Assembly: GCF_003590775.1 (NCBI RefSeq)
Contig: NZ_QYUM01000004.1
Span: 620,001-684,000 of the forward strand
DNA from: Sphingomonas cavernae
Lineage (GTDB): Bacteria > Pseudomonadota > Alphaproteobacteria > Sphingomonadales > Sphingomonadaceae
Direction: 5' to 3'
DNA: 64,000 nucleotides
Shown here: positions 30,761 to 54,027 of the stretch, in pieces
Numbering within the stretch: position 1 is the first letter of the stretch
Layout: every line of letters starts with the position of its first letter
Position numbers and translations under genes: made by a program
Notes under the pieces: model-generated
What the model saw: the letters and a program-made list of their open reading frames with translations, nothing else
What the model was told of the DNA's origin: nothing
Database searches by the model: none

Positions 30761-32275
30761 TCAATGCCTTCCAGAAAGGCGCAACATTACCGAACCGTGC
30801 GCCGGGACCGCGAAATCGAGCATATTTGTGTCGACGTCGGTGCCCCTCCAAAGGTCACGCCCGCCGAGCAGCGAGCGAAATCCGGCATCACCCGGCGCGA
30901 CGGAAATGCTGCGCCCGGTCGTCCCACGGTTGAACAATGCGACCGCGACCGAACCATCCGAAAGCGGTTTCGCCCAGATTTCGGCATCGCCATCCTTACT
31001 CACCACTCTGCCCTGGGCGCCTTTGACATCCTGATCGACCGCGATGACCTCGCGGCGCGACAATATCGCCCTGGTCGCTTCATCCATGGTCCGCAGGTCG
31101 TGCCCCATCAGCAGCGGTGCCGCCGACATCGCCCAGAGCGTCATATGCGTCCGGTATTCGGTTTCGGTCATGCCGCCATTGCCCACTTCGAGCATGTCGG
31201 GATCGTTCCAGCCGCCGGGGCCGGCGTTGCCAAATTTTGGATTACGGTCGAACCCGATATCGGACATTTTCGCGAAATCGTCGGTGATGTCGCCCGTCGT
31301 TCGCCAGAGATGGCCGCCGACGTCCCGGCCCCATTCCGACACCTCAACGCGGCCATATTGACACAGGCTGTAGACGATATCGCGTCCCGTAGCCTTCAGC
31401 GCCGCGCCCATCTGCTGATAGGCGCGCTGCACCTCGTCACGGCTCGAATAGAACCATTCGCCCGAGCACAGATCATATTTCAGATAGTCCATGCCCCATT
31501 CGGCGAAGGTCCTGGCGTCCTGCTCGACATGGCCATAGCTGCCGATATAGCCCGCGCACGTCATCGGTCCCGGCGAGCTGTAGATGCCGATCTTGAGGCC
31601 GCGCGCATGCACATAATCGGCAAGCGCCTTCATATCGGGAAATTTCTCGTTGGGCCGGATCGCGCCGTCCGGGCCCCGCGTCCCCTGCCAGCCATCGTCG
31701 ATGTTGACATAGACATAGCCCGCATCCCGAAGCCCCGAGGAGACCATGGCATCCGCGATTTCACGGACCGTCTTGTCATCAATCCGTTCAGCGAACTTGT
31801 TCCAGCTACTCCAGCCCATGGGCGGTGTTGCAGCGAGGCCGTCGGCCGCCACGGGCGCCAGCGGCGGCAACTGGACAGGCTTGAAACGGCGGGCTTTCGC
31901 TTCGCCTTTTGTGCCGCGCCGCCCGGTCTGTTCGACATGCGCATACCAGATGTCACCCGTGAGCGTGACGCGGCCGTCGCTGACGGTCGCGGTCCAGCGC
32001 CGGGTCGGATTGGCCTTGTCGTTGAGATTGCGCATGTCGAACGCGATCGTGTCGCCGCGGCGCTCGATGTTCTGCATTTCCATGGCGCCGTACCAGCGCG
32101 TGGTGAGGATGCCCGAGAGCTTCCGGTTGCGTTGCGTCAACTCCATCATTTGCACGCCGGGATAGGACAGGCTGGTGTCGAAAACCCAGATGCCGGCGGT
32201 AGCGTCCTTCGCCTGTGCGGGCTGGAAGGCGACAAGCGCGAGCGCAGCAAACAGGGACAGGAGACGTAAAAGCAT
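30761..32275 (-). CDS. GH27 family alpha-galactosidase, secreted
   Basis: Secreted retaining glycoside hydrolase that releases alpha-D-galactose. A signal peptide (LLSLFAALALVAFQPAQA) and a roughly 130-residue beta-rich N-terminal region precede the barrel. The barrel starts TPPMGWSSWNKF, has the nucleophile Asp268 in YLKYDLC and the acid/base Asp329 in RTTGDI, and ends in a beta-sandwich. I choose the ATG at 32275 (GGGAG nine bases upstream, direct signal peptide). An ATG at 32314 overlapping the GH43 stop (ATGA) is the alternative. It is the last gene of the receptor-GH43-GH27 operon. Alpha-galactose is found on galactomannans and, notably, on serine in extensins. Confidence 0.9.
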   Translation of the reverse strand: MLLRLLSLFAALALVAFQPAQAKDATAGIWVFDTSLSYPGVQMMELTQRNRKLSGILTTRWYGAMEMQNIERRGDTIAFDMRNLNDKANPTRRWTATVSDGRVTLTGDIWYAHVEQTGRRGTKGEAKARRFKPVQLPPLAPVAADGLAATPPMGWSSWNKFAERIDDKTVREIADAMVSSGLRDAGYVYVNIDDGWQGTRGPDGAIRPNEKFPDMKALADYVHARGLKIGIYSSPGPMTCAGYIGSYGHVEQDARTFAEWGMDYLKYDLCSGEWFYSSRDEVQRAYQQMGAALKATGRDIVYSLCQYGRVEVSEWGRDVGGHLWRTTGDITDDFAKMSDIGFDRNPKFGNAGPGGWNDPDMLEVGNGGMTETEYRTHMTLWAMSAAPLLMGHDLRTMDEATRAILSRREVIAVDQDVKGAQGRVVSKDGDAEIWAKPLSDGSVAVALFNRGTTGRSISVAPGDAGFRSLLGGRDLWRGTDVDTNMLDFAVPAHGSVMLRLSGRH

Positions 32276-32310
32276 AAGAAGGGGCTCCCTGATCAGAAAG
32301 AAGGGGATCG

Positions 32311-33921
32311 TCATTGGTGTTCCGTTTTCGGGTCGTCGCACGCGGCGGCCGCGTCGCGCACCGATCCGCGGACGATCGCGGTGGCGCGAGGTGCCAGAAC
32401 CTCCCACTCCTGCACCGCGACGGCCGCATGGCGGCCATTTGCGGAAGAGGCGTCGAAGACCGCGCGAATGCACCGCGTGGTGACCGGGCCGAAACGGGTT
32501 TCCGCGAATTTGCCGGGGATCGTGCCATAAGCGCTTGCGCGCGGAACGGGCTTCCAGCGGCCGTCTGCCCAATAAAGGATCCGCCAGCGCGCGGGCGGCG
32601 CCACACCTTCGCCCGATCCGGTGGGATGGTCGCTCCAGAAATGGATCCGCGAACCATTCAGCGTCACAGGCTTGTCCCAACGATATTCGATCCATTGCCG
32701 GGGCGGATTGGCGGTTGTCCGGCTCCAGCTTCCCCACATGTCCGGAGGCAGCGGATTGGCCCGAACGATGCCGTCGTTGAGCGACTTGATCCAATATTGC
32801 ACCGGTACCGGCATGTTGGAGGCGAAGGCGGACCCCATCGGTGCGACATTGCGCTGCGGCCCCGGCGCAGGAACGGGCGCGCGCGTCGGGAGAAGCTTGC
32901 GGATGCGCGCGGGCGTGACGCTGTCATCCCATTCCAGACGGTCGATCGCGACGCTGCGACGGAAATGTCCGCCACCCCGCGCGTCCGCATTATGGTAGGC
33001 AAGATACCATTGGCCTTTATATTCGACCGCGCCTGCATGTGAGGTCGTCGAGGATACCGGGTCGAGGATCACGCCACGATAGGTCCAGGGACCGAGCGGC
33101 GACGGCGCGGTGCCATAGGCGATGCACGCGTGATAGAGCGTCGGGGTGCAGTCCGAATCCGGCCCGGCCCGGTTGCCGGCGTAAAGCATGTAATAGACGC
33201 CCTTGCGCTTCATGAACCAGGGCGCCTCGAAGAAGCCGTCGAGGCTTTCGACCGAGATGACGCTGCCCTTGGGCGTGATCATGTCGGATGCGAGCTCGAC
33301 GCCCCTGAGCCGACCGAAAGTACCCCAATAGAGATAGACGCGACCGTCGTCGTCAACGAGCACCGTCGGATCGATATTCTGGATGGTGTTGGGAACGGGC
33401 AGCTTTTGCGAGACGATCGGGCCCGACGGATGCGCATCCCTCCACGGCCCGCGCGGGTCGTCCGCCACCGCGACACCGATCGCGAAGCGGTCGCGGGCGT
33501 CGCTTTTGGCCTCGAGCACCGGTGCATAAAAATAAATGCGGCCGTCGCCACCCCTGATCATCTGCCCCGCATAGGCGCGTCCCGGTTCGGCCCAGGCGAA
33601 GACGTTTTCGGGCCGTGCGATCGCGGGATAGTGCACCCAGCGGGCCGAAGCTGGATCTCGTGTGGCAAGCAACTGCCACTCGTTCATGATGAAATCGTTG
33701 ACATCGACCGGGGCCTCGTCGCGGCCGGCGAGGATGTAGAGCGTGTCGTCGAGCACCAGTGGTGCCGGGTCAGTCGAATAATAGCTGCCGTCGGACAGGA
33801 CGGGGTTGGCGGGCGCAACGATCGCGTTGCCGTGCGAAGCCTGCGCTGTCCCCACGACGGGCGTCGCGAGCGCCAGCACGGCAACACCCGAAGCCAACTC
33901 TCTCAATCCGTGCCGGATCAT
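32311..33921 (-). CDS. GH43 family glycoside hydrolase with C-terminal sugar-binding domain, secreted
   Basis: Five-bladed propeller inverting enzyme, typically alpha-L-arabinofuranosidase or beta-xylosidase. A signal peptide (SGVAVLALATPVVGTAQA) is followed by catalytic Asp51 in YYSTDPAPL, Asp184 in IQNIDPTVLV and Glu232 in FFEAPWFM. The last 170 residues (from QYWIKSLNDG) form a beta-sandwich like F5/8 or CBM domains. The ATG at 33921 is chosen because it opens the signal peptide. A longer frame reaches 34020 and would overlap little of known family. It sits 43 bases after the TonB receptor gene and overlaps GH27. Removal of alpha-linked arabinofuranose is the most likely role. Confidence 0.87.
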   Translation of the reverse strand: MIRHGLRELASGVAVLALATPVVGTAQASHGNAIVAPANPVLSDGSYYSTDPAPLVLDDTLYILAGRDEAPVDVNDFIMNEWQLLATRDPASARWVHYPAIARPENVFAWAEPGRAYAGQMIRGGDGRIYFYAPVLEAKSDARDRFAIGVAVADDPRGPWRDAHPSGPIVSQKLPVPNTIQNIDPTVLVDDDGRVYLYWGTFGRLRGVELASDMITPKGSVISVESLDGFFEAPWFMKRKGVYYMLYAGNRAGPDSDCTPTLYHACIAYGTAPSPLGPWTYRGVILDPVSSTTSHAGAVEYKGQWYLAYHNADARGGGHFRRSVAIDRLEWDDSVTPARIRKLLPTRAPVPAPGPQRNVAPMGSAFASNMPVPVQYWIKSLNDGIVRANPLPPDMWGSWSRTTANPPRQWIEYRWDKPVTLNGSRIHFWSDHPTGSGEGVAPPARWRILYWADGRWKPVPRASAYGTIPGKFAETRFGPVTTRCIRAVFDASSANGRHAAVAVQEWEVLAPRATAIVRGSVRDAAAACDDPKTEHQ

Positions 33922-34044: not shown

Positions 34045-37002
34045 TCAGAACTTTGCCGTCAGGCCGACGAAGATCATCCGGCCCAGCGGGTCGTAGACGC
34101 CCGGATAGGTGTTGCCGTTGCCAAAGGAGCTGAGCAGCCCCTGTGCAATCGCCGGCGGATCTTTGTCGAAGATGTTGTTGACGCCGGCGCGCAGCGTGAA
34201 GTTCTCGATCACGTCCACCGTCGCGGCCAGATCGAAGTAGCTGTACGCACCGATCTTGCTGTTGATGACGAACGGCGTACCCGCCAGATACTCGTTGTCG
34301 GTGTTGCTGGAGAGCTTGGTCGAGCCGAAATAGCGCCAATTGAGCGACAGCGACGCGTTCGACCAGGGCATCTGCCACGTCGTGCGGAACTGGTGGCGCC
34401 AGGTCGGCGTCGGCTGGCCGCAGGTGGGGCCGAACAGGCCCGCGCAATCATAGGTGCCGAGCCCCGGAAGCGGCTGGACCACATGCTTGTCGAGCCAGGT
34501 GCCGACGAGCTCGAAGTTGAGCTTGCCGCCTTCGTTCAACCCTAGCGTGTCGAGATCGAAGGCATAGCTCGCGTTCACGTCGACGCCCGAGGTCTTGAGA
34601 TAGCCGGTGTTGAGCGTGGTCGCGACGATATAGCCGTCGGTGCCGAAGATGACGCCCGTAGTCGGATCGCGGTGGAACAGGTCGCAGAAGAACGGATTGC
34701 CCGTCTGGACACACTGGTTGATCGTCAGGAACGGATCGACCGTGCCGATATAGTTGTTCACCTTGATGTTGTAGTAATCGAGCGAGAACGACAGGTTCGG
34801 GATCGCCCGCGGCGTCAGGATCACACCCGCGGTATAGGTGTCGGCTTCCTCGGGCTTGAGCAGCGGGTTGCCGCCGCCCTGCGTCACGCAGGTTTCGGCC
34901 GGGCATTCGGGAATGCGACCGTACTGCGCCTGGGTGACGCCGGTAAGCGCACAGCGATCGAACGAGGCGGTCGGGGTCGGGCCCGAGCAAGGATCCTGCC
35001 CCTGGACGTTGCCAAGCCCGCGCGACGCGAACAGCTCGCTGACGTTTGGCGCGCGGATCGCGTGGTTATAGCTTGCCCGGAAGCGGACGTCGCGCGACGG
35101 CGCATAATCGAGTTCGGCCTTGTACGTGGTCGCGCCATAGCTCGTCACGGTGCCGTCGAGGCTGTCATTGGTATAGTCCGAATAACGCAGGCCCGCATTG
35201 ATGCTGAGCGAATGCGCGAACGGCATATCGGACAGGATCGGCAGCTCGAGTTCGCCGTAGATCTCGCGGACCTTGATCTTGCCCTTGGATTCGAGCGTGC
35301 CCTTTTGCTGCGCCAGCTCGTCGGCCCGGAAGTCGAGCGTTTCGATGCGCTGCTCGACGCCGATTGCGAAGCCCACCGCCTGCAACGCCCAGGGACTCTG
35401 GACACCATAGGCGCTCAGCTCGCCGCTCACGTTCGCGCTCAGCACGGTCAGCTTCTGCTCGCCTCGCGTGAAGGTGGGCGCGTAGATATAGTCGTAGACC
35501 GCGGGATCGATATTGCCAAAGCCGAAGACGTCCATCGGGACGCAGTCGGGATCGGTGCCATCAATCACCGATTTGCAGGTTGCGACGCCGTTGACGTTAA
35601 CCACCTGGAGCGCGTTCTTCGCCTTGGCCGGCGAAATGTCGTTCTGATAGTTCTCGTTGAAGATCATGATCGAGCGCAGCGCGCCAACATCATAGCTGAT
35701 CCCCGGCGCGATCTCACCGCGGACGCCGCCCTGGAAACGGTAGTCGGTGTGGCGCAGGTCGTCGCGTCGCGGCGCGCTGCCATCACCGGTCATGCGATAG
35801 CCGATAAAGGTGTCGCGGCTCGTGTCGGTGCCGGCTGCAGCCCCACAGAGCAGACCCGCCTGCTGCGCGCTCATGAAGGGATTGTCGCAGTTGATCGAAT
35901 AGACCTGACCCTGGAAGAGCGCCGAGGGCGCCGCCTGGGAGAAGGTGTGATCGTCCATGAACATGAAGCTGCCGTACAGCTCCGCTGCCTTGGACAGCTC
36001 GTAGTGCGCGAAGGCCCCCGCGGTATAGCGGCGGTCCGAACGCTGCATATAGTTGGTCGGCGCGTAGTTGTAGCGGAACGAGCTGTTGTAGGGCACCCAG
36101 GTCTTCGCGCCGTCCTTGGTGTTGTTATAGGTCACCGGCGCGCCCGTGGTCGGATCGGCCAGCACCGTGAACAGGCCATATTCGTTGTTGCTCGAACCGC
36201 CGCAGACGAAGCCGGTCCTGTCCGCATTGGGATCCAGCGCGCAAGCCGAATAGTCGCGCGATCCCTGGAGGATCGGGTTGACGCGGCGATAGCCGCCATA
36301 GACGGTGATGTTGCCACGATCGTCTGCGAAGTTGGTGCCCGCCGCGAAGTTCACGTCGAACTTCTCGCCATCGGTCACTGAGCTCGGCGCCGTCTGATAG
36401 CCATTGCTGCGGACCAGATCGCGCAGCGACTTGTTGTCGTTGTTGTGCTGGTAAAAGCTGAACTGCGCATCGGCGCGGACGCCCTCCAGATTCTTGCGCA
36501 GGATGAAGTTGACGACGCCCGAGATAGCGTCGGAGCCGTAGACCGCCGACGCGCCGCCCGTCACGACATCGACGCGCTCGACCAGCGAAGACGGCACGAA
36601 GTTCACGTCGATCGCCTGGGTCGGCAGCATGCGCTGACCGTCGATCAGCACGAGCACGCGGTTCGAACCGAGGTCGCGCAGGTTGATGTTGGCAGTGCCG
36701 TCCGAGCCGTTGGAGACGTTCTCGTTGGCGTCGGGGGTGAATTGCGGGAGCTTGTTGAGCACGCTCTCGACCGTGGTCGCGCCCTGGTAGCGGAACTCGG
36801 CGTCGCTCACGACGGTGATCGGGCTGTTGCTCTCCAGATTGGGACGGCGGATGCGCGTTCCGGTGACGACGATGGCGTCGCCTTCCGACGCCGCCGCGTC
36901 CTCGGCGGGCGCGGCGTCCTGCGCGAATGCCGGTGGCGCGAGCAATGCAATGGCGATTGCGGCGGCGCTGCTCCCCAGGCCGCTGCGGTGGATTCTGATC
37001 AT
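34045..37002 (-). CDS. TonB-dependent outer-membrane receptor
   Basis: A 985-residue receptor. The signal peptide (AAAIAIALLAPPAFA) is followed by the plug (IRRPNLESNSPITVVSDAEF, INLRDLGSNRVLVLIDGQRM, VVTGGASAVYGSDAISG) and the 22-strand barrel ending in IFVGLTAKF. The ATG at 37002 has GGAGG six bases upstream, and open frame further upstream is promoter DNA. It heads an operon with GH43 and GH27, the normal sphingomonad layout for importing oligosaccharides released outside. The likely ligand is an arabinose- or galactose-containing oligosaccharide or glycopeptide. Upstream half-sites resemble the operator shared by the hydroxyproline genes. Confidence 0.92.
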   Translation of the reverse strand: MIRIHRSGLGSSAAAIAIALLAPPAFAQDAAPAEDAAASEGDAIVVTGTRIRRPNLESNSPITVVSDAEFRYQGATTVESVLNKLPQFTPDANENVSNGSDGTANINLRDLGSNRVLVLIDGQRMLPTQAIDVNFVPSSLVERVDVVTGGASAVYGSDAISGVVNFILRKNLEGVRADAQFSFYQHNNDNKSLRDLVRSNGYQTAPSSVTDGEKFDVNFAAGTNFADDRGNITVYGGYRRVNPILQGSRDYSACALDPNADRTGFVCGGSSNNEYGLFTVLADPTTGAPVTYNNTKDGAKTWVPYNSSFRYNYAPTNYMQRSDRRYTAGAFAHYELSKAAELYGSFMFMDDHTFSQAAPSALFQGQVYSINCDNPFMSAQQAGLLCGAAAGTDTSRDTFIGYRMTGDGSAPRRDDLRHTDYRFQGGVRGEIAPGISYDVGALRSIMIFNENYQNDISPAKAKNALQVVNVNGVATCKSVIDGTDPDCVPMDVFGFGNIDPAVYDYIYAPTFTRGEQKLTVLSANVSGELSAYGVQSPWALQAVGFAIGVEQRIETLDFRADELAQQKGTLESKGKIKVREIYGELELPILSDMPFAHSLSINAGLRYSDYTNDSLDGTVTSYGATTYKAELDYAPSRDVRFRASYNHAIRAPNVSELFASRGLGNVQGQDPCSGPTPTASFDRCALTGVTQAQYGRIPECPAETCVTQGGGNPLLKPEEADTYTAGVILTPRAIPNLSFSLDYYNIKVNNYIGTVDPFLTINQCVQTGNPFFCDLFHRDPTTGVIFGTDGYIVATTLNTGYLKTSGVDVNASYAFDLDTLGLNEGGKLNFELVGTWLDKHVVQPLPGLGTYDCAGLFGPTCGQPTPTWRHQFRTTWQMPWSNASLSLNWRYFGSTKLSSNTDNEYLAGTPFVINSKIGAYSYFDLAATVDVIENFTLRAGVNNIFDKDPPAIAQGLLSSFGNGNTYPGVYDPLGRMIFVGLTAKF

Positions 37003-37059: not shown

Positions 37060-37105
37060 TGACAAATAGATGTCAAATATTTTATACGATTTTATGATAT
37101 ACGAA
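37060..37105 (-). promoter_or_regulatory. Promoter region of the receptor operon with ATCGTATA half-sites
   Basis: On the minus strand, TTCGTATATC and AATCGTATA are directly repeated 15 bases apart (37082-37105), and the second shares nine bases with the 17-bp operator at 48357. Closer to the gene, TTGACA lies within the inverted repeat TGACA-N6-TGTCA (37060-37075). The link to GntR control is an inference. Confidence 0.45.
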
Positions 37106-37217
37106 TGAAAAACCTGATATTCTGCGCCCCTTGGGACAGCGACGGACGCCGCGCGTCGCACCGGTCACCGAATCATGTCCGAGAAAACGCCTGCGGGGCG
37201 AAGAATCGCCGATCGTG

Positions 37218-38930
37218 TCAGCCGGCCGGGCTTGCGCGCCCGTCCGCCAGCCAGGCATCGACGCGGTGCTCGACGATCGAAAGCGGCATGGGACCATCCG
37301 CGATCAGCAGATCGTGAAAGGCGCGATTATCGAAGCCTTCACCCAGCGCCGCCTGCGCGCGACGGCGTAGCGCTGTGAAGCGAACTTCGCCGACCTTGTA
37401 CGCGAGCGCCTGCGCCGGCCACCCGATGTAGCGCTGCGTCTCACCTTTAGCGACGCTCTCGGGGAGTGCCGTGTTTTCGCGCAGGCATCGCTCCGCCGCG
37501 TCGGCACTCCAGCCTTTCCAGTGGATGCCGACGTCCATCACCAATCGGCAGGCGCGCCACATCTCGAACGACAGGCGCCCGAAATCGTCATAGGGTGTCT
37601 CGTACATCCCCATCTCCACGCCCAGCTTTTCCGAATAGAGCGCCCAGCCTTCGACAAAGGCCGTGATGTCGTCGCGACGGCGAAAGGCCGGCAAGTCCTG
37701 CCGCTCCTGGCCCAGAGCGATCTGGAGATGGTGGCCTGGCACACCTTCATGCATCATCCAGGCCGTCAGGCCGAATAGCGGATCGCGGTACGAAGCCCTT
37801 CCGACCGCAACGGCACCCGCTACACCCTTTTCCGGATCGCCCAGATAATAGGCGCCCGACGACGCCTCCATCTCGGGCGGCTTCACATAGATGCCCCAGG
37901 GAAGCCGCGGCAGCTTCCCGAACCAGCGCGGCAGCGCATAATCGAGCCGCTTCCCGATCGCCGCGGCCTTTTCGATATAGGTCTTGAGATCGGGCGCGTA
38001 GAATTTTGGATCGCTGCGTACATAGGCGAGGAATTCAGCAAAGCTGCCGGTGAAGCCCGTCGCGCGCATCGCGGTTTCCATCTCCGCGCGGATGCGCTTC
38101 ACCTCGGCTTCGCCGAGCGCAAAGATCTGGTCGGGGGTCATGTCGGTCGTGGTCGAGCGTCGCGCCGTATAGGCATAATAGGCCTTGCCGCCGGGCAAGC
38201 CCGATGCGCCGAGCGTATTGCGCGCCGCCGGAAGATACTCGCGCTCGAAAAAGACGAGCAGAGTCCCTTGCGCGGGTTTCACGGCTTGCGCGACGACGGC
38301 ACGGCCCTCGGCGATCAGCGCCGCGCGTCGATCGGCCGGAATGCCGGGCGGCATCGCGGCCAGCGGCTTGAGCAACGGGCTTTCGTCGATCGGTTGCGCA
38401 ACCGCCATCTTCAGGATGGCGAGCACGCCCTCGGCAGTCGGTCGCGGCTGAGTGAAACCGGTCGCGATTCCGCGGCGCATATTGGCGATCTGCGCATCGT
38501 ACCAGCCGGGAAGCTCGCCCAGGCGCGCGATCCACGCGCGGGCATCGGCTTCGGTGCGGACCACGGTATTGCCCGCGGCATAATTCGCAGCGTTGAAGAA
38601 GCCATCGCCGGCGTCGAACGGAATGCGCTCCTCATCGAAGCGCGCGCCCTCGATCATAATGTCCAGCCGCCAGTCGAGCAGCGTCCGGGTCAGCGCCTGT
38701 TCGGGCGTGAGGGCTTGCCCGTCGAGCCCGGCCAGCCTCTTCTCCAGAGCGCGATATGCCGCGTTGCGTGCCTTCACTGCCCTGGGGCTGATATCGGGCC
38801 AACCGGTCTCAGCCTCGGCGGGATTGGCAAGCGCCTCATAATCTTTGACGACAGCATCGAGCGTGTCCGCCAGCGCAGGCGCGTGGATGAGACCCGCGGC
38901 AAGCGCGAGCGCAAGCGTTGCAGTTCGCAC
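37218..38930 (-). CDS. DUF885 family secreted metallopeptidase, first copy
   Basis: Putative zinc peptidase of about 570 residues with a signal peptide (ATLALALAAGLIHAPALA). The metal motif is MMHEGVPGHHLQ, the second Glu motif is AFVEGWALYSEKLG, and the C-terminal half has EMGMYETPYDDFGRLS, all typical of DUF885. The GTG at 38930 follows the permease stop by two bases and directly opens the signal peptide. The frame upstream is antisense-like. As last gene of the hydroxyproline operon, it probably releases proline- or hydroxyproline-rich peptides in the periplasm. Its specificity is not known. Confidence 0.85.
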   Translation of the reverse strand: MRTATLALALAAGLIHAPALADTLDAVVKDYEALANPAEAETGWPDISPRAVKARNAAYRALEKRLAGLDGQALTPEQALTRTLLDWRLDIMIEGARFDEERIPFDAGDGFFNAANYAAGNTVVRTEADARAWIARLGELPGWYDAQIANMRRGIATGFTQPRPTAEGVLAILKMAVAQPIDESPLLKPLAAMPPGIPADRRAALIAEGRAVVAQAVKPAQGTLLVFFEREYLPAARNTLGASGLPGGKAYYAYTARRSTTTDMTPDQIFALGEAEVKRIRAEMETAMRATGFTGSFAEFLAYVRSDPKFYAPDLKTYIEKAAAIGKRLDYALPRWFGKLPRLPWGIYVKPPEMEASSGAYYLGDPEKGVAGAVAVGRASYRDPLFGLTAWMMHEGVPGHHLQIALGQERQDLPAFRRRDDITAFVEGWALYSEKLGVEMGMYETPYDDFGRLSFEMWRACRLVMDVGIHWKGWSADAAERCLRENTALPESVAKGETQRYIGWPAQALAYKVGEVRFTALRRRAQAALGEGFDNRAFHDLLIADGPMPLSIVEHRVDAWLADGRASPAG

Positions 38931-43013: not shown

Positions 43014-43042
43014 CCGTTGTTTCCCTAGCTCTTGTCTTGAAC

Positions 43043-43059: not shown

Positions 43060-43090
43060 ACTGGCAACAACGATGCAATGGAAGAGTGCA

Positions 43091-44332: not shown

Positions 44333-44336
44333 TGCC

Positions 44337-45549: not shown

Positions 45550-46572
45550 TCAGGCGTCCAGCAATCTCTCCAGATCCTCGTAGAGCGCACGGGGAATCTG
45601 GACTCCTTCGACCAGGCTCCTCGCCCGCGCCTCGAAGCGGCGCTGCGAGGGCAGGCGCGCGCCCTGCCCTGTCATCCCATCGAACAATGCCTCGGCGCGT
45701 TGCATATGCTCGGCCGCGGCAGCGCCAAGGAATCCAGCCGGATCGATCCCGATCACCAGTTCGCCGCCAAAGGGCGAGGCTTTGGCGCCGTCGTCATGCG
45801 CCAGCGATTCGGCGCTGGTCATATCGCCAATCAGCGGCCCCGCGAGCAGCTCGACCATCGCCGAGAGCGCCGATCCCTTGTGCCCGCCAAAGGTCAGCAT
45901 CGCGCCCGCCAACGCCGCCTCGGCGTCGGTGGTGGCATTGCCTTCAGCGTCGATTCCCCAGCCTTCGGGGATCGACTTGCCCGCGCGACGATGCAACTCG
46001 ATCTCACCGCGCGCGACAGCGGTGGTCGCGAAGTCGAATACGAAGGGATGTTCGCCCGGCCGCGGCCAACCAAAGGCGATCGGGTTGGTGCCGAAAAGCG
46101 GCTTGATACCGCCTGCCGGCGCAACCCAGGCATGACTCGGCGTGAAGGCAAGCGCAACCAGCCCATGCGCAGTCACCGCCTCGATCTCGGGCCAGAGCGC
46201 CGAGAAATGGACGCAATTGTTGATCGCCATCGCCGCGATACCCAGCCGCCGCGCCCTTGAGACCAGACGCGGCAGGCCAAGCTCGAACGCGGCCTGCGCA
46301 TAGCCGCCTTTGGCGTCGACGCGCACCAGCGCCGCCGCCGCATCCGCCATGCTGGGCTCGGCATCGGGCACGACCTTGCCCGCCTTGAGCGTATGGACGC
46401 AGACGAGCAATCGATAGAGGCCGTGCGAAGCGCAGCCATCGCGTTCACCCGCGACCATCGTCTCGGCCACGGCATCGACATGCGGCGCCTTCAGGCCGTG
46501 TCGTGCCAGAACGGCGCGCGCGAAGTCGCGCGCTTCATCCAGCGACATGCGCACGAAAGCGTCACTCATCAT
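45550..46572 (-). CDS. Ldh/malate dehydrogenase (YlbC) family NAD(P)H oxidoreductase, probable cyclic imine reductase
   Basis: A 340-residue member of the non-Rossmann Ldh2/YlbC/DpkA family. Typical pieces are GERDGCASHGLYRLL, NNCVHFSALWPE (catalytic His) and FGTNPIAFGWPRPG with the DFATTAVARGE cofactor segment. DpkA-type members reduce pyrroline-2-carboxylate to L-proline, a role that fits an operon where D-proline or 3-hydroxyproline could give pyrroline-2-carboxylate. Lactate or ureidoglycolate activity cannot be excluded. Its start overlaps the preceding DUF885 gene by 11 bases, so the two are coupled. Confidence 0.8.
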   Translation of the reverse strand: MMSDAFVRMSLDEARDFARAVLARHGLKAPHVDAVAETMVAGERDGCASHGLYRLLVCVHTLKAGKVVPDAEPSMADAAAALVRVDAKGGYAQAAFELGLPRLVSRARRLGIAAMAINNCVHFSALWPEIEAVTAHGLVALAFTPSHAWVAPAGGIKPLFGTNPIAFGWPRPGEHPFVFDFATTAVARGEIELHRRAGKSIPEGWGIDAEGNATTDAEAALAGAMLTFGGHKGSALSAMVELLAGPLIGDMTSAESLAHDDGAKASPFGGELVIGIDPAGFLGAAAAEHMQRAEALFDGMTGQGARLPSQRRFEARARSLVEGVQIPRALYEDLERLLDA

Positions 46573-48325
46573 CGGGATACGGCCCCTTGCCGCCCTCTGC
46601 GATGAAGCGATCGACGCGCGCGTGAAGCACCGGCAGCGGTACCGAACCTAGCTGGAGCACGGTGTCGTGGAAGGCGCGGATGTCGAACCTGGCGCCGAGC
46701 GCCTTCTCAGCCTTGGCGCGCGCTTCGATGATCGCAAGCTCGCCCAGATAATAGGACAGCGCCTGCCCCGGCCAGGCGATGTAGCGATCGACCTCGGTGG
46801 TGATCTCGTGCTTCGCCAATGCGGTGTTGTCGAGCATATATTGCTGCGCCTGTTCGCGCGTCCAGCCCATGGTGTGGACGCCCGTGTCGACCACAAGCCG
46901 CGTCGCGCGCCACATTTGATAGCTCAGCATGCCGAAACGGTCATAGGGTGTCTCGTACATGCCCATCTCGACACCCAGCTTCTCGGCATAGAGCGCCCAG
47001 CCCTCGCCAAAGGCCGAGATATAGGTCTGCTGCCGAAATTCGGGCTGATCCTTGTTCTCGCCGGCAAGCGGCATCTGGAAGGCATGGCCCGGCGCGGATT
47101 CGTGCAACGTCAGCGCCGCCAGTGAATAAAGCGGACGCGCAGGCAGGTTCCAGGTGTTGACGAGGTAGATGCCCGGACCGCCGCGGCCGCCCGTGTAGTA
47201 GGGCGCGATATCGTCAGGCACGGGCTTGATCGCGAAGCGCTGGCGCGGAAGCCGTCCGAACCAGTCAGCGACCTTCCCGTCGAACTGCTTGGCGATATAC
47301 GCCGCGCGCATCAGCAGTTCCTGCGGCGTCTTGGCATAGAATTGCGGATCGGTCCGCAGAAAGGTCAGGAAGGCGGGCAGATCGCCCTTGAAGTTCGTCT
47401 CCTGCATCACTTCGAGCATCTCTGCGCGGATCTTGGCGACCTCGTTGAGACCGATCTGATGGATCTCGGCCGGGCTAAGGTCGAGCGTGGTGAACTCGCG
47501 GATGCGCGACTGGTAATAGGCCTTGCCATCGGGCAGGTCCCAGGCGGCGAGCGACTTTTGTGCGCCGGGGATATATTCCTTGCGCAGGAAGGTGATCAGC
47601 GTCTGGTGCGCGGGGATCACATGATCGCGCAGCGCCGCAAGCCCCGCCGCGCGCAGTTCGGCCTGGGTGGCTGCCGGGATGCTCGCGGGCATCTTTTTGA
47701 AGGGCGCGTAGAAGGGATTGTCTTCGGTCGCGCCGGGCTTCAGCACTGAATCCACCGTCGCGTCGCGGCCCTGCAGCGTTATCTGCGGCGGGGTGAACCC
47801 GCGCTTCAGGCCAGCGCGCATATTCTCGATATTCTGCGTGAAATAGCGCGGCAGTTCGGAAAGCTGCGAGACATAGTTGCGGTAATCGGCTTCCTTCAGG
47901 AAGCTGCGCTGCGCGGTGCCCGCAACGTTGCCCCAGAAGCTGGTGTCCGAATTGAGCGGGCGCTCATATTCGCGGAACTGCTGCTCCGCGACGAGCGAAT
48001 CGATCTGATATTTGTAGATCTGATAATTGACCTGATCCTCAGGCGAGAGCCCGGCCGCATCGATCGCTGCCAGCTCGCGCTGCACATCCTGCCAATAGGC
48101 GAGCCGCTTTTGCTGCGCAGCAAGGCTGACATCGGGCAGGTGCGCGCTGATCTCGCGCCCGCTATCCTCATCGTCCGCGAACTGCTGCTTCCGCCAGCTC
48201 CATTCAGCGGTATAAAGCGCCTTGAACTGCGCGCCACCGGCTTCCGCGGCACTCGCGGTTCCCGAAAACGCGGCTGCCGCCCCGATCAATGCTGCGGTTA
48301 TCATGGCGCGCGTGCGGAACTTCAT
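46562..48325 (-). CDS. DUF885 family secreted metallopeptidase, second copy
   Basis: A 587-residue putative zinc peptidase with signal peptide MITAALIGAAAAFSGTASA. The metal motif is TLHESAPGHAFQM and the second Glu motif is AFGEGWALYAEKLG. The C-terminal half repeats the EMGMYETPYDRFGMLS segment of the first copy, so the two are paralogues with moderate divergence. The ATG at 48325 is chosen at the signal peptide. The same frame stays open to 50599, but that stretch is antisense to the GH127 gene. It starts 32 bases from the shared operator and is divergent from GH127. Likely role: trimming deglycosylated proline-rich peptides. Confidence 0.87.
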   Translation of the reverse strand: MKFRTRAMITAALIGAAAAFSGTASAAEAGGAQFKALYTAEWSWRKQQFADDEDSGREISAHLPDVSLAAQQKRLAYWQDVQRELAAIDAAGLSPEDQVNYQIYKYQIDSLVAEQQFREYERPLNSDTSFWGNVAGTAQRSFLKEADYRNYVSQLSELPRYFTQNIENMRAGLKRGFTPPQITLQGRDATVDSVLKPGATEDNPFYAPFKKMPASIPAATQAELRAAGLAALRDHVIPAHQTLITFLRKEYIPGAQKSLAAWDLPDGKAYYQSRIREFTTLDLSPAEIHQIGLNEVAKIRAEMLEVMQETNFKGDLPAFLTFLRTDPQFYAKTPQELLMRAAYIAKQFDGKVADWFGRLPRQRFAIKPVPDDIAPYYTGGRGGPGIYLVNTWNLPARPLYSLAALTLHESAPGHAFQMPLAGENKDQPEFRQQTYISAFGEGWALYAEKLGVEMGMYETPYDRFGMLSYQMWRATRLVVDTGVHTMGWTREQAQQYMLDNTALAKHEITTEVDRYIAWPGQALSYYLGELAIIEARAKAEKALGARFDIRAFHDTVLQLGSVPLPVLHARVDRFIAEGGKGPYPDDE

Positions 48326-48345: not shown

Positions 48346-48373
48346 TTGCCAAAGCAATCGTATACCGTATAAC
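48346..48373 (+). promoter_or_regulatory. GH127 promoter with embedded 17-bp operator
   Basis: TTGCCA and TATAAC are 16 bases apart, 46 bases upstream of the GH127 ATG. The 17 bases 48357-48373 (ATCGTATACCGTATAAC), which cover the -10 box, are the exact complement of 43043-43059. A repressor bound here would block transcription directly. Confidence 0.72.
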
Positions 48374-48418
48374 TTGCTCATGCAACTGTCCGACAAATGT
48401 CTTGAGGGAGGGACGAGA

Positions 48419-50803
48419 ATGACCCAGCATGGGCCCTGCGCGAGCCGCCGCGAAATGCTCTACGGCGTGGCCATCAGCGCAATGATCGCAAGCACGCCCG
48501 CTGTAGCGCGCGCCGCTACCACTGCAACCGCCCTGCCCGCCAAGGCCAAGGCATTGCCGCTGGGTGATATCCGCCTGCTGCCCTCGCACTTCCTCGACGC
48601 AGTCGAAGCCAATCGCGGCTACCTGATGTCGCTCGAACCCGATCGGCTGCTGCACAATTATCACAAGTTCGCGGGGCTCCAGACCAAGGGCGCGATCTAT
48701 GGCGGCTGGGAAAGCGACACGATCGCGGGCGAGGCGCTGGGTCATTATCTGAGCGCACTCGCGCTGCTCCATGCGCAGACCGGTGACGCCGAGTCCAGGC
48801 AGCGCATCGACTACATCATCGACGAGCTGGCGCGCTGCCAGACGGCGCATGGCGACGGCTATGTCGCGGGCTTCATGCGCAAGCGCAAGGATGGCACCGT
48901 CGTCGACGGCAAGGAGATCTTCCCCGAGATCATGCGCGGCGAGATCCGCTCGGCGGGCTTCGATCTCAATGGCTGCTGGGTGCCCTTCTACAACTGGCAC
49001 AAGCTCTTCGCGGGCCTGATGGACGCGCAGGCGCTGACGGGCAACCGCAAGGCCGTGCCGATCGCGGTCGCGCTGGGCGGCTATGTCGAAAAGGTCTTCG
49101 CCGCGCTCGATGACGCGCAGACCCAGACCGTGCTCGATTGCGAACATGGCGGGATCAACGAAAGCTTCGCCGAGCTCTATGCGCGCACCAATGACAAGCG
49201 CTGGCTGGCGCTCAGCGAGCGGCTCTATCACCACAAGGTGCTCGACCCGATGGTGGCGAAGCGCGACGAGCTCGCCAACATCCACGCCAACACCCAGGTA
49301 CCCAAGCTGATTGGTCTGGCGCGCCTTTACGAACTGACGGGCAATCCCGAGCGCGCGATCGCCGCGCGTTTCTTCTGGGAGCGCGTGACGGGCCATCACA
49401 GCTATGTGATCGGCGGCAATGCCGACCGCGAATATTTCTTCGGCCCCGACCGGATCGCCGACCACATCACCGAGCAGACCTGCGAATCCTGCAACACCTA
49501 CAATATGCTCAAGCTCACGCGGCACCTGTTCGCCTGGGCGCCCGAGGGTGCGTTGTTCGACTATTATGAGCGCGCACACCTGAACCACATCCTCGCGCAC
49601 CAGAACCCCAAGACGGGCATGTTCACCTACATGATGCCGCTGATGTCGGGCACCAAGCGCGAATGGTCCGATCCCTTCGACAGCTTCTGGTGCTGCGTCT
49701 GCTCGGGCATGGAAAGCCATGCCAAGCACGGCGATTCCATCTGGTGGGAAGGCGACGACACGCTGTTCGTCAACCTCTTCATCCCGTCGCGCGCCGAGTG
49801 GAAGGCGCAGCGCGCGAGCTTCGAGATTCAGACGCGCTACCCCTATGAAGGCCGCGTCGACCTGAAGGTCGCAACGCTCAAGGGCTCGGGCCGTTTCGCG
49901 GTCGCGCTGCGCATCCCCGGCTGGGCGAAGCAGTCGGCGATCCAGGTCAACGGCAAGCCGGTGACCGCGATCACGGGCAATGGCTATGCCGTCGTGCGCC
50001 GCCGCTGGAAGGCGGGCGATGTCGTCACGCTCGACCTGCCGCTCGACCTGCGCCTCGAGGCGACGCCGGGCAATGACGGCGTCGTCGCGGTGTTGCGCGG
50101 CCCGATGGTGCTCGCCGCCGATCTCGGCGCCGCCGAAACGCCCTTCGATGCCGCGGCGCCGGCGCTGGTGGGCAGCGACATCGTCGCGGGCTTCCAGCCC
50201 GTGGCGCTGACCGAGGCAACCTATCGTTCGCAGGGTATCGGTCGTCCGGGCGACATGAGCTTCGGTCCCTTCTATCGAAACTATGAGCGCCGCAGCGCCG
50301 TCTATTTCCGCCGCTTCACCGATGCCGAATGGGCGAAGGCCGAGGTCGCCTATGCCGCCGAACAGGCGCGCCTGAAGGATCTTGCCGCGCGTTCGGTCGA
50401 CGTGATGCATCTGGGCGAAATGCAGCCCGAACGCGACCACGCCCTGACATCGGACATCTCCTACCCCGTCGTCTATCGCGGCCGCAACGGACGTGATGCG
50501 CGGACGGGGGGCTTCTTCGAGTTCACGATGAAGGTGAAGCCCGGCCCGCTGATGCTGCAGGCAACCTATTGGGGCGAGGAGCGCAAGCGCCTGTTCCACA
50601 TTCTGGTCGATGGCAAGCGTGTGGCGTCACAAACGCTTAATGCCGAAAAGCCCGGTGAATTCTTCGACGTGGAGTATGCGATTCCCGACGCGCTGACCAA
50701 GGGCAAGAAACAGGTCAAGATCCGCTTCGAGCCCGAGCCCGGCAATACCGCTGGGCCCGTGTTCGGCGTCACGATCTTCACGCCCAAGACGACCAAAGCC
50801 TGA
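48419..50803 (+). CDS. GH127/GH146 family beta-L-arabinofuranosidase, secreted
   Basis: A 794-residue (alpha/alpha)6 enzyme that removes beta-L-arabinofuranose, the sugar attached to hydroxyproline in plant extensins. The Zn-cysteine active site is visible: Glu356 and Cys358 in TCESCNTYNML, and Cys425-Cys426 in FWCCVCSGMESH, equivalent to the zinc ligands and nucleophilic Cys of HypBA1. Glu338 in NADREYFFG is a candidate acid/base. A beta-sandwich C-terminal half ends the protein. The N-terminus has a twin-arginine signal (ASRREML then hydrophobic). The ATG at 48419 has GGAGG seven bases upstream. It is divergent from a DUF885 peptidase across the shared operator. Confidence 0.9.
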   Translation: MTQHGPCASRREMLYGVAISAMIASTPAVARAATTATALPAKAKALPLGDIRLLPSHFLDAVEANRGYLMSLEPDRLLHNYHKFAGLQTKGAIYGGWESDTIAGEALGHYLSALALLHAQTGDAESRQRIDYIIDELARCQTAHGDGYVAGFMRKRKDGTVVDGKEIFPEIMRGEIRSAGFDLNGCWVPFYNWHKLFAGLMDAQALTGNRKAVPIAVALGGYVEKVFAALDDAQTQTVLDCEHGGINESFAELYARTNDKRWLALSERLYHHKVLDPMVAKRDELANIHANTQVPKLIGLARLYELTGNPERAIAARFFWERVTGHHSYVIGGNADREYFFGPDRIADHITEQTCESCNTYNMLKLTRHLFAWAPEGALFDYYERAHLNHILAHQNPKTGMFTYMMPLMSGTKREWSDPFDSFWCCVCSGMESHAKHGDSIWWEGDDTLFVNLFIPSRAEWKAQRASFEIQTRYPYEGRVDLKVATLKGSGRFAVALRIPGWAKQSAIQVNGKPVTAITGNGYAVVRRRWKAGDVVTLDLPLDLRLEATPGNDGVVAVLRGPMVLAADLGAAETPFDAAAPALVGSDIVAGFQPVALTEATYRSQGIGRPGDMSFGPFYRNYERRSAVYFRRFTDAEWAKAEVAYAAEQARLKDLAARSVDVMHLGEMQPERDHALTSDISYPVVYRGRNGRDARTGGFFEFTMKVKPGPLMLQATYWGEERKRLFHILVDGKRVASQTLNAEKPGEFFDVEYAIPDALTKGKKQVKIRFEPEPGNTAGPVFGVTIFTPKTTKA

Positions 50804-51210: not shown

Positions 51211-54027
51211 TCATTCAGGAAGCAGTTCGACCTGCACGGCCTTGCTGCCGAGCGTCACCGCATAGCCGCCACGTTCCGGGCTTGCGCCTGCCCCGGGCCG
51301 ATAGCGCTTCATCCCCTTCGCCGTGGTCTCCACATTGAGCCAGGCGCGTGGCGTATGCGCGTCGGCGGGTGCCAGCGTGAGGCGGACGCGCTTCGTCTTC
51401 GGGTCATAGTCGACGCGCTCGAACCGTCCGGCGTCGAGCGTCAGCCAGAGGCCCGCGGGCGCGACGAATATGCGTGAGCGGAAGCTGTCCTTCGGAACGA
51501 TGCTGACTTGGCTGCCCTTGGACGTCACCTCACCGCCAAAGCCGATCCAACCGAAGGTCGGATGATCGACCAGATAGGACGCTGTCTCCCAGACATGGCC
51601 GAAAAAGCCCATGCCGTAATCACCGTTATAGGCATCGAAGCGCATCATATCGGGGAAGGAATGAAAGGCGGCGGAGCCGAAGCCGTCCTGATCGATATTG
51701 GTCGTGGTCCCCATCAACCCGCCATAGGCGACGCGCAGCAGATGGATGTCCTTGGGATCGCGGCGATAGCTGTCGAACAGCGGGATCGCGTTGTTGGCCG
51801 ATCCATAATGATGGAGCTGGCGCTCGATCCGCTTCACCTTGCCCGCATATTGGAAATCCCAATAGCGGCGCGCGCTGCCATTATAGCCCCAGTGCGGAAT
51901 CGTCGGATCATAGCCCAGGATAACCTCGCGCGTCAGATCGGCTTTCTCATGATCGCCGAAATAGCGCATCCAGGCATAAACTTCCTCCTGCCCTGTCGAA
52001 TCCCAGGGCATTTCGCTGCCGAAGGGATAGGCCTCGCCCCGCCACCGCTCGGCCCGACCCTGCATCATTGCTTCGAGCGAGCGCGCCTCGGCATCGAGTC
52101 CCTCGCGCTTCAGATCGTCGAGGATGTCGACGAAGACGTCGCCCTCCATCTGGCCATATTGCGCATAGTGCGGCGCGAGCCGGACCATCGCCATCGAGGT
52201 TTCATAGGCGCGGTTCAGATACCAGCGCCAGTCGTGCGCCTTCACCAGCCCCTCATGATAGCGCGCGAGCCGGTAGAGCACCCATTGCGCGGCGGCGACA
52301 TGGACATAGTTGAACGAGCGGCCGACCGAATCCGAACCCTTCTTGGCCCATGCCGACCAGGCCTTCCAGTCGATCGCGGGATCATAGGCGAAGTCGGGCT
52401 TTGCCTTCGGGTCATAGAAGAAAAGGCTCTTGCGGACGCCGAACTTGTCCTTGCCCTCATTCACCTGAAGCCGCCCGTCGAGCGTTTCGGTGACGAAGCG
52501 CTCGAACTTCGCGACCTCGCCCGCGTCGGGCTGGCCGAGCTGCTTCATGATGCCGGCAAGCCAGGCGCCCGCCCCGCCCTCGTCGCTCAGCCCCGCCATC
52601 CAGACGCGGTCTTCCTGCAGCACGATTTTATTGGTGTCGCGGTCATAGCTCATCAGCGAGGGTGAGCGGCCAAAGGGGTCGGCGGGGTTGTCGTACCAGT
52701 GCTTGTCGAACAGGAAGCGGCCGAGATCGGCGACCGCCGCGCCGCTGGGCTTGGTCACGAAATAATGGACCGCCTGAACGCTGCCATCGGCATAGGTGAC
52801 GTCGATGCGCGCACGGCCCCAGGCATTGCCCTTTAGCCGATATCGCGCCCAGCCCTTGGCCGAACCCGCGCGCGTTACGTCGATCGCGCCCGCAGGACTG
52901 ACGGTGATACCCTTCACCGCAGACGCCGATTTCAGGAAGAGGTCACCTGCAAGGTCGGTCGGCAGAACATAACCGGGGACGCCCACCGCGACCGGGCGCC
53001 CTTCGGCAGCGAGCGTTTCCTCGATCTTGCGGATTGCGGGCGCCGTCGCGAAGCGCACGCCGATCTCGCGGCTTTCACCCGGTGCGAGGGTGAAGCTGGT
53101 GGACGCATTCCACTGCTCGGCGCCCTTCCAGTCGGTCTCGGCAAAGCCCTTGCTCGCGACCATCCACTGGTGAAAGCCTTCGAAGGTGATGCCGCGCTTG
53201 GTGGGATCGTTGAACGGCTTGGGGTTGCCGTCCGCATTCTTCTGGTCGAGGATCGGCTTCCAGGCTTCGAGCGGCGTGCGGCCCTCGGGGAGCACGAGCA
53301 GCGCCGGCCCCTTGCCGTTGAGGCGCGTCACCTGAACATAGCCGGCATCGCGGCCGATATAGGGATCGGCGAAGCTCGCCTTGACGTGCGCTTCCTCGAG
53401 CGAGCGATCGGTAATGATGTTGTTGAACACCATCGGAATGCCGAGACCGCCTATCTCGATCGCCCGATCGCCGGGATTGATCAGGCGAAAGCGCAGGGCG
53501 AGCTTGCCCTTCTCCGTGATCCAGCGCCGCTCGACACGAAGTCCGGGTTGCGCGCCGAGATCGTCGCTCAGATCGGCGGCCGCAAGAATGTTGCCGCCCG
53601 CGGGAAGCGCGCGGACCGGGGTGCGCCGCGCTGCCGTCGAATAGTCGCGCCATGCCGCTTCCCCGGCGAGGCGGACGCGCAGGTCGATGTCGCCGACATT
53701 GTAATAGCCGTCGCCAAGCCGCTGCGCCGCGCGGTCGGACGGCGCGAAGTCGACGCCATCGCCTCCCTTGGGCGCCAGTGAGATCAGCGTTTGCGACACC
53801 GGATCGAGCGAGAGCGTGAATTCCGCGGTTTCGAAACGCATAGGCGACGCGGATTGAGAATCAGTCTGGCCAGCGGGCGCCGCATTGCCCTGCACAAGTG
53901 GTGCGGCCGCCAGCAGTCCAAGAGGCGCCATCATCACCGCAAGCCGGTATTGACCACGATAATTTCGTCTTTCCATGCCGCGCTGTTCCCCTGCTTCGAC
54001 GGACCGAAAAGCCGGAAATTCCGACAT
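51211..54027 (-). CDS. Large secreted DUF5695-type protein, candidate glycosidase
   Basis: About 938 residues with a signal segment (LAVMMAPLGLLAAAPLVQG). An N-terminal beta-sandwich region (FTLSLDPVSQTLISLAPKGG onward) is followed by an all-helical central domain with repeated aromatic and acidic residues (LFDKHWYDNPADPFG, AAQWVLYRLARYHEG, PFGSEMPWDSTGQEEVYAW) and a beta-rich end. This beta-sandwich plus (alpha/alpha)6-like layout is that of many glycoside hydrolases, and I place it in DUF5695, which has no agreed activity. The ATG at 54027 has GGAG eight bases upstream. A second candidate is at 53976. It is convergent with GH127 and has its own GTATAC palindrome upstream. Confidence 0.72.
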   Translation of the reverse strand: MSEFPAFRSVEAGEQRGMERRNYRGQYRLAVMMAPLGLLAAAPLVQGNAAPAGQTDSQSASPMRFETAEFTLSLDPVSQTLISLAPKGGDGVDFAPSDRAAQRLGDGYYNVGDIDLRVRLAGEAAWRDYSTAARRTPVRALPAGGNILAAADLSDDLGAQPGLRVERRWITEKGKLALRFRLINPGDRAIEIGGLGIPMVFNNIITDRSLEEAHVKASFADPYIGRDAGYVQVTRLNGKGPALLVLPEGRTPLEAWKPILDQKNADGNPKPFNDPTKRGITFEGFHQWMVASKGFAETDWKGAEQWNASTSFTLAPGESREIGVRFATAPAIRKIEETLAAEGRPVAVGVPGYVLPTDLAGDLFLKSASAVKGITVSPAGAIDVTRAGSAKGWARYRLKGNAWGRARIDVTYADGSVQAVHYFVTKPSGAAVADLGRFLFDKHWYDNPADPFGRSPSLMSYDRDTNKIVLQEDRVWMAGLSDEGGAGAWLAGIMKQLGQPDAGEVAKFERFVTETLDGRLQVNEGKDKFGVRKSLFFYDPKAKPDFAYDPAIDWKAWSAWAKKGSDSVGRSFNYVHVAAAQWVLYRLARYHEGLVKAHDWRWYLNRAYETSMAMVRLAPHYAQYGQMEGDVFVDILDDLKREGLDAEARSLEAMMQGRAERWRGEAYPFGSEMPWDSTGQEEVYAWMRYFGDHEKADLTREVILGYDPTIPHWGYNGSARRYWDFQYAGKVKRIERQLHHYGSANNAIPLFDSYRRDPKDIHLLRVAYGGLMGTTTNIDQDGFGSAAFHSFPDMMRFDAYNGDYGMGFFGHVWETASYLVDHPTFGWIGFGGEVTSKGSQVSIVPKDSFRSRIFVAPAGLWLTLDAGRFERVDYDPKTKRVRLTLAPADAHTPRAWLNVETTAKGMKRYRPGAGASPERGGYAVTLGSKAVQVELLPE

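Follow-up and report, generated by a model that had tools for sequence, protein, structure and literature searches.

The window analysed here is a 64-kb stretch (G000:C4:620001-684000) of the Sphingomonas cavernae genome (4.24 Mb, five contigs), and the positions below refer to it unless another contig is named. Its region 30761–54027 carries 14 genes that, as read from their sequences, are predicted with a probability of roughly 0.75 to form a HypR-type (GntR/FCD) regulon for plant or green-algal hydroxyproline-rich glycoproteins. The families were assigned by Pfam scans of the open reading frames of the window, over the cut-off, and the starts were chosen separately. Every gene family named in the original prediction, which had read the region as a locus for extensin degradation and hydroxyproline catabolism, was found there, together with two proteins beyond its list, an Ldh_2 dehydrogenase and a DUF5695 protein. 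The genes and the operator-like sites among them, the latter scored in bits with a position weight matrix (PWM), are as follows.

30761–32275, minus strand: GH27, alpha-galactosidase-like, with a signal-peptide-like N-terminus (PF16499, 1.6e-68; nearest solved chains the alpha-galactosidases 6f4c and 1uas); start at 32275 or, alternatively, at 32314 with an overlap into GH43
32311–33921, minus strand: GH43, beta-xylosidase/alpha-L-arabinofuranosidase-like (PF04616, 1.4e-31; 3qee, Gly43N)
34045–37002, minus strand: TonB-dependent receptor (PF07715, PF00593), first gene of the putative transcript with GH43 and GH27
37072–37107, no strand assigned: operator-like sites ahead of the TonB receptor (22.1 and 15.2 bits, PWM scan)
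37218–38930, minus strand: DUF885 protein a, secreted metallopeptidase-like, with an HExxPGH motif in its translation (PF05960, 7.5e-144)
38933–40360, minus strand: APC-family amino-acid permease (PF13520, 9.6e-58)
40371–41024, minus strand: FCD-type GntR regulator, HypR-like (PF00392, PF07729), putative repressor of all six transcripts
41099–42097, minus strand: 4-hydroxyproline 2-epimerase (HypE), step 1 (PF05544, 1e-118; NF010578; both Cys motifs)
42102–43013, minus strand: DapA-type deaminase (HypD-like), step 3 (PF00701, 7.9e-58)
43041–43061, plus strand: operator-like site in the divergent dapA/DAO promoter (25.7 bits), containing GTTATACGGTATACGAT
43091–44332, plus strand: FAD D-amino-acid dehydrogenase (DAO, HypO-like), step 2 (PF01266, 6.1e-49)
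44337–45524, plus strand: M24 Xaa-Pro peptidase, no signal peptide seen (PF00557, 2.4e-61; PF01321, creatinase_N, 3.8e-20)
45550–46572, minus strand: Ldh_2 dehydrogenase (PF02615, 9.6e-96), to be compared with HypS of published HypR regulons
46562–48325, minus strand: DUF885 protein b, secreted metallopeptidase-like (PF05960, 1.4e-161; lipoprotein 3o0y, 254 bits)
48355–48375, minus strand: operator-like site in the divergent DUF885b/GH127 promoter (25.6 bits), with the same 17-mer as at 43043
48419–50803, plus strand: GH127/GH146, beta-L-arabinofuranosidase-like, with a twin-arginine-like signal (PF07944, 1.7e-124; PF20736; DUF6805)
51211–54027, minus strand: DUF5695 protein with a signal-peptide-like N-terminus (PF18951, 1269 bits); predicted fold of the polysaccharide lyase BACCELL_00875
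54044–54064, plus strand: weaker operator-like site ahead of DUF5695 (14.3 bits, PWM scan)

Judged by their spacing, the 14 genes were grouped as six putative transcripts: TonB receptor-GH43-GH27 (37002 to 30761, minus), dapA-hypE-gntR-APC-DUF885a (43013 to 37218, minus, with gaps of 2 to 74 bases), DAO-M24 (43091 to 45524, plus), DUF885b-Ldh_2 (48325 to 45550, minus, with overlapping genes), and, each alone, GH127 (48419 to 50803, plus) and DUF5695 (54027 to 51211, minus). When the translations were read by eye, signal-peptide-like N-termini were found in the glycosidases and in the DUF885 and DUF5695 proteins, and none in the M24 peptidase. No SusD family member was seen among the scanned locus proteins, and the TonB receptor is without the SusC/SusD pair of a Bacteroidetes-type polysaccharide utilization locus.

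The epimerase carries both catalytic Cys motifs, MCGH and DRSPCGTG, in its translation, as had been predicted; these are the epimerase Cys motifs in PMC4364671. It passes the NCBIfam equivalog NF010578, '4-hydroxyproline epimerase' (545 bits against a cut-off of 376), and stays below the cut-offs of the models for proline racemase (NF010576, 296/556), trans-3-hydroxyproline dehydratase (NF045511, 273/540; NF047722, 195/550) and two other epimerases (NF052296, 207/450; NF010577, 180/442). Proline racemase is the name given to its nearest solved chains, but this identity was rejected because the equivalogs favour the 4-hydroxyproline enzyme. By these scores the window protein is of the 4-hydroxyproline 2-epimerase class, with the corresponding activity predicted. 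The DapA-type protein scores under the dapA equivalog cut-off, and the best NCBIfam model for the DAO protein is D-amino acid dehydrogenase, below the cut-off of that model. HypS, with which the Ldh_2 protein bears comparison, appears as 'malate dehydrogenase' in the regulons of PMC5343134. The scan of window proteins showed no aldehyde dehydrogenase for step 4; the one found in the loci of relatives has a 64%-identical homologue at G000:C2:113799-115277.

We derived an operator solely from the hydroxyproline promoters of relatives; its consensus, ATCATATACCGTATACGATAT, is palindromic. The first PWM was built from 27 dapA promoters, with the window and its near sister G003 excluded. In the 64-kb window, scores of at least 13 occur solely at four locus promoters, namely those of dapA/DAO, DUF885b/GH127, the TonB receptor and DUF5695; matches of at least 10.6 otherwise overlap the locus sites, and the best score elsewhere is 9.8. 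These four promoters head the six putative transcripts, that is, all 14 genes. The two strongest sites share the 17-mer GTTATACGGTATACGAT (43043–43059 and 48357–48373), for which two matches were found in 0 of 100 shuffles, and the 16-bp operator core with up to two mismatches has just these two occurrences in the whole genome. Unlike the 17-mer and the PWM, looser patterns did not clearly outnumber their matches in shuffled sequence (7 against a mean of 4.05; 4 against 2.63). With the first PWM, 39 of 4600 Markov shuffles reached 12 bits, while 28 of 31 upstream regions of dapA, including the 27 used for training, lay above the 99th control percentile.

The pairing of the two halves was then followed in the family set of 249 genomes (HypE and GH127 matches at E 1e-60 or better, counted by hand), a genome comparison that had been proposed with the original prediction. 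HypE was found in 33 genomes and GH127 in 26, of which 20 hold a copy of at least 60% identity; this line, which defines the GH127 clade, was placed in the gap between 61% and 52%. HypE is present in 20/20 genomes with the clade against 13/229 others (Fisher p 3.6e-21), and by genus in 14/14 against 2/82 (p 5e-15). The two genes lie 2.1 to 10.7 kb apart in 18 of the 20, with varying gene order and orientation; in G086 and G183 they stand on different contigs. Six family genomes have only a GH127 of 41–50% identity, outside the clade, and one of them, G032, has HypE. DUF885b (at least 45% identity) occurs in 17/18 linked regions and in 1/11 examined HypE-only regions, two of the 13 such genomes (G100 and G161, fragmented) being left out. 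A GntR copy of at least 50% identity was found in 16/18 linked regions. The loci of relatives also hold S10 and DPP IV peptidases, gamma-glutamyltransferase, a POT peptide transporter, an amidohydrolase and an aldehyde dehydrogenase.

The promoters of the linked GH127 genes were scored with a second PWM, trained solely on 10 genomes without linked GH127. Since the first control set held neighbours of locus genes with true-looking sites, a distant set of 346 promoters, none closer than 5 kb to a homologue of a locus gene, was used. Of the 18 promoters of linked GH127 genes, 16 score above the 99th percentile of these controls, and eight above every one of them. The two misses are G225 (11.0 against 12.0) and G229 (9.0); in the latter, GH127 stands behind DAO, and the DAO promoter has a 35-bit site. 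Four of five other GH127 copies fall below the 99th percentile (G086, 74% identity; G060, G094 and G184, 48–50%), and the fifth, on a separate contig of the HypE genome G183, lies above it. The claim that deglycosylation of hydroxyproline-rich glycoproteins and hydroxyproline catabolism are joined in one regulated locus is supported by the linkage in 18 genomes, the co-occurrence and the operator at both halves.

The sharing extends beyond the family set. A profile scan of contigs with a 12-sequence GH127 alignment yielded 445 relatives, of which 79 loci were retained; of these, 78 could be scored for the operator (the upstream DNA of L106 is too short); the named relatives with the locus are, as we take it, mostly Sphingomonadaceae and Caulobacteraceae. 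Operator sites turned up again in Caulobacter, Asticcacaulis, Shewanella, Alteromonas and Steroidobacteraceae. HypE, DapA or DAO lies within 10 kb of GH127 in 31/79 loci, and GH127 has a site of at least 12 bits in 28 of them, compared with 22 of the 47 others scored. The three exceptions are Steroidobacteraceae loci in which GH127 directly follows DAO and the site stands in the dapA/DAO promoter; sites were also found there at the promoters of DUF885b (three loci), the TonB receptor (two) and GntR (two), and in the third locus the flank ends at the receptor, with a site before the end. In the same loci (L086–L088), DapA is 79–80% identical and, like DAO, has the operator, and the HypE-family protein of the flank, beside DUF5695, is 35% identical.

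If the operator marks such a regulon, HypE is expected elsewhere in the genomes of the 22 operator-bearing loci without nearby hydroxyproline genes. A close HypE (at least 65% identity) was found in 20 of the 22, one match being an 87-residue piece, whereas only 2 of the 25 loci lacking the operator have one (p 5e-9). In twelve of the 20, HypE shares the contig with GH127 at a distance of 10–28 kb, and in eight it is on another contig, including L114 (G252), where GH127 is on C2 and HypE on C3; a second GH127 copy of G252, with a stop, lies on C3 27 kb from HypE. In Shewanella fodinae and Alteromonas confluentis, HypE is 28 and 12 kb from GH127 on the same contig; roughly 1 kb ahead of HypE these genomes have sites of 30.0 and 30.6 bits, and operators were also found at the TonB receptor and GH127 promoters. 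Beyond the 31 dapA upstream regions, 20 of 21 genomes with a close HypE have a 21–31-bit site about 1 kb upstream of it (13.5 bits in the remaining one), which is the position of the dapA promoter in the window. The gene families, the epimerase class, the conserved linkage and the shared operator are results of the computation.

These results bear on two other explanations. One is that a cluster of pectin/arabinan glycosidases stands by chance beside an unrelated cluster for hydroxyproline, in line with BT0349, the nearest solved relative of the GH127 protein, being an arabinan/rhamnogalacturonan-I enzyme (PMC10850190). Set against this are the linkage below 11 kb in 18/20 carriers, the varied gene order and the same operator at both halves in Alpha- and Gammaproteobacteria, on which grounds a chance neighbourhood, strongly disfavoured already and very improbable, was rejected. 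Another is that the operator belongs to a different regulator, for example an arabinose sensor, which governs both halves. Some operator-bearing GH127 loci indeed lack a GntR homologue of 50% identity in their 10-kb flanks. The site, however, also marks the hyp promoters of genomes without linked glycosidase; the GntR/FCD gene is encoded inside the hyp operon of the window; in two Steroidobacteraceae loci the site stands just upstream of GntR; and twofold symmetry is usual in the binding sites of GntR-like proteins (PMC6608401). A different regulator is therefore decidedly unlikely, and we infer that the GntR protein binds the operator and represses the transcripts.

In GH43, Asp51, Asp184 and Glu232, which we take to be the catalytic residues, are invariant in 10/10 aligned sequences; in the GH127 protein, Cys355, Cys358, Cys425, Cys426 and Glu352/356, presumably the zinc-binding and catalytic residues, are invariant in 12/12. 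The latter protein has a GH127-type domain (PF07944); among solved chains, GH146 BT0349 (5opj) scores 462 bits and HypBA1 (3wkw) 60, so that a classical HypBA1 identity was rejected and the protein is nearest to GH146 by these scores. Among GH146 enzymes, XeHypBA1 cleaves mainly Araf-beta-Hyp, Bll4HypBA1 acts on Araf-beta-Hyp on the backbone, and Bll3HypBA1, whose gene sits in an arabinogalactan protein (AGP) cluster, acts on AGP and arabinan (PMC10850190). Since GH146 members variously cleave arabinan, AGP and Hyp-arabinosides, the family fits hydroxyproline-linked arabinose without proving it.

The DUF5695 protein was examined with 39 near full-length homologues gathered from the fetched loci. 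An AlphaFold2 model made from 28 sequences (mean pLDDT 78.5, pTM 0.83) matched BACCELL_00875 (5no8/5nok) in Foldseek with E 9e-23 and a TM score by target of 0.78. The likeness lies in the overall predicted fold only, at 14% identity: sequence and profile searches of the PDB gave no match to 5nok/5no8 and one weak match without a passing stretch. We take BACCELL_00875 to be a rhamnosyl-glucuronate lyase, labelled PL27, that removes rhamnose caps from AGP, and the modelled fold of DUF5695 speaks for AGP no less than for extensin.

The same regulon may serve mainly for AGPs or algal hydroxyproline-rich glycoproteins rather than extensin arabinosides, an alternative that we hold tentatively, as somewhat less than even. 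Besides the predicted fold, the AGP cluster of Bll3HypBA1 and the presence of the regulon in Shewanella and Alteromonas, many members of which are aquatic, argue for it. Against it stand the Araf-beta-Hyp activities of the two other GH146 enzymes, the lack of a sequence relation between DUF5695 and the lyase, and the scan of the locus proteins, among which no galactanase or glucuronidase family was seen.

A regulon for plant or green-algal hydroxyproline-rich glycoproteins, with substrate, transport order and ligand as we infer them, would work as follows. Glycopeptides would enter the periplasm through the TonB receptor, where the GH146-type (GH127 in Pfam), GH43 and GH27 glycosidases, together with DUF5695, would remove the glycans, and the two DUF885 peptidases would cut the hydroxyproline-rich peptide. 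The APC permease may import hydroxyproline or small peptides, from which the M24 peptidase would release hydroxyproline. HypE, the D-hydroxyproline dehydrogenase and the DapA-type deaminase would convert it to alpha-ketoglutarate semialdehyde, to be oxidised by the aldehyde dehydrogenase encoded on C2. Hydroxyproline, D-hydroxyproline or a later intermediate would free the operator of the GntR repressor. Because the operator is common to all six transcripts, hydroxyproline is predicted to induce the glycosidases. We put at even odds the further idea of a two-class regulon in which the core amino acid, not a sugar, induces deglycosylation, plant or algal glycoproteins serve as carbon and nitrogen source via one operator, DUF5695 is an undescribed family removing glycans from hydroxyproline, and DUF885b is a peptidase for hydroxyproline-rich (glyco)peptides.

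Alternatively, the locus may serve a general scavenging of proline/hydroxyproline peptides of the collagen type, with the glycosidases minor. The S10, DPP IV, gamma-glutamyltransferase and POT genes of relatives and the collagenases in published HypR regulons (PMC5343134, PMC6608401) would suit this. No M9 collagenase, however, was seen among the scanned proteins of the window and of the relatives' loci, and among operator targets GH127 ranks next to the hyp genes (sites of at least 18 bits assigned to each gene: DAO 22, DapA 21, GH127 19), so we consider scavenging unlikely.

Several observations weigh against the glycoprotein regulon or narrow it. First, the glycosidase families, such as GH146, hold members with differing substrates. 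GH43 and GH27 (at least 50% identity) occur in only 2/18 and 5/18 linked regions, and the DUF5695 fold resembles that of a lyase which we connect with AGP; the original prediction of a locus with enzymes for every extensin linkage is thus not supported, and extensin is a candidate target. Secondly, 13 of the 33 family HypE carriers have no such glycosidase, so the hydroxyproline half can exist alone. G007 carries HypE and no operator; HypE was not found in the operator-bearing Shewanella mangrovi and Sphingomonas endophytica NS334; and no operator was found near the C2 aldehyde dehydrogenase, where the best operator-like score is 8.9. The 19 Duganella loci have no nearby hydroxyproline genes of this type, and 0 of the 18 scored reach 12 bits (best 11.9); in the 18 Duganella genomes searched, only a HypE relative of 35–37% was found. 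Three of ten Asticcacaulis loci are likewise without nearby hydroxyproline genes and below 12 bits. In G086, the 74%-identical GH127 is on another contig than HypE and without operator, while the hyp promoter has one. Finally, 5 of the 346 distant controls reach 12 bits with the first PWM; the 12-bit and 60%-identity lines were chosen after inspection of the data; and the genomes are related by descent, so that the counts are not independent, although gene order and orientation vary.

The glycosidase half of G086 (G086:C33:125001-145000, L082) comprises DUF5695, GH127, a GntR protein of 48% identity, a TonB receptor and GH27, apart from HypE and with no strong site; a switch of regulator is possible in this half, which has its own GntR.

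Among known systems, the nearest are the HypR regulons. They are described in Shewanella and other Proteobacteria, where those of Alteromonadales take in collagenases, proline peptidases and a TonB receptor (PMC5343134), and, by experiment, in Streptomyces coelicolor, where HypR represses a hyp operon and a collagenase gene (PMC6608401). They likewise combine a GntR regulator and hyp genes with polymer breakdown upstream, in some lineages with a TonB receptor, proline peptidases and a HypS-type dehydrogenase. They use collagenases, whereas the locus described here uses glycosidases and DUF885 peptidases, and the Streptomyces motif, CTNTGC(A/C)ATGTCAC, the only one compared, is unlike ATCATATACCGTATACGATAT (PMC6608401). 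The present system works like a HypR regulon and probably is one. As HypR regulons with collagenases are already published, the principle is not new; of the earlier claim that no described system joins the two halves, only the part on plant glycoproteins stands, no such version being among the literature matches listed.

The HypBA1/HypBA2/HypAA systems of Bifidobacterium longum and Xanthomonas euvesicatoria (PMC6085000, PMC10850190, PMC7263609) likewise use GH127/GH146 and GH43 for hydroxyproline-linked arabinose, and the Xanthomonas genes adjoin a prolyl oligopeptidase gene, which is a pseudogene there. They yield arabinose, with hydroxyproline catabolism unmentioned in the available parts, and include GH121, for which no search was made here. 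An in silico account of hydroxyproline-rich glycoprotein degradation in Latescibacteria also proposes GH127 for extensin; its available part mentions neither a linkage to hydroxyproline catabolism nor a regulon, and describes the information on pathways and microbes degrading such glycoproteins as limited (PMC4454575). Judged by title or the start of the abstract, none of the matches listed (in three cases the best 20 of 22, 15 of 77 and 15 of 1,053) joins glycosidases for hydroxyproline glycans to hydroxyproline catabolism, subscription journals being mostly outside the scope, and none of the five on DUF885 peptidases concerns this use.

Extensins and AGPs are abundant as wall and root proteins, and the records of the relatives give leaves, roots and ponds as the origin of isolates or samples. 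The conserved regulon offers a candidate gene list with a testable inducer and ties DUF5695 and DUF885, two families without known function, to a substrate class; the predicted induction of sugar-removing enzymes by hydroxyproline is unlike that of sugar-sensing polysaccharide loci. A record titled Bacillus sp. 2B10 (L132) holds a Sphingomonas-like copy of the locus, and its assembly is probably mislabelled or mixed.

Around the locus, two tRNA-Thr (tgt) genes, at 16493–16567 and 30617–30692, share 64 identical 3′ bases. The approximately 14 kb between them contain insertion sequence and integrase genes, a DUF3363 protein, a sulfotransferase, a pyruvyltransferase and a low-GC stretch (48.5% at 20–22 kb), and are probably an island ending just beside the locus. 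A short open reading frame at 29906–30427 encodes part of a TonB plug together with a DUF3471 domain and may be what is left of a gene at the edge of the island. On the other side of the locus, at 57577–60665, a gene for a MATCAP-type protein, of the tubulin tyrosine carboxypeptidase family, precedes an ATP-grasp gene that is glutathione-synthetase-like. An autotransporter of 1077 amino acids with a trypsin-like match was found at 2003–5236.

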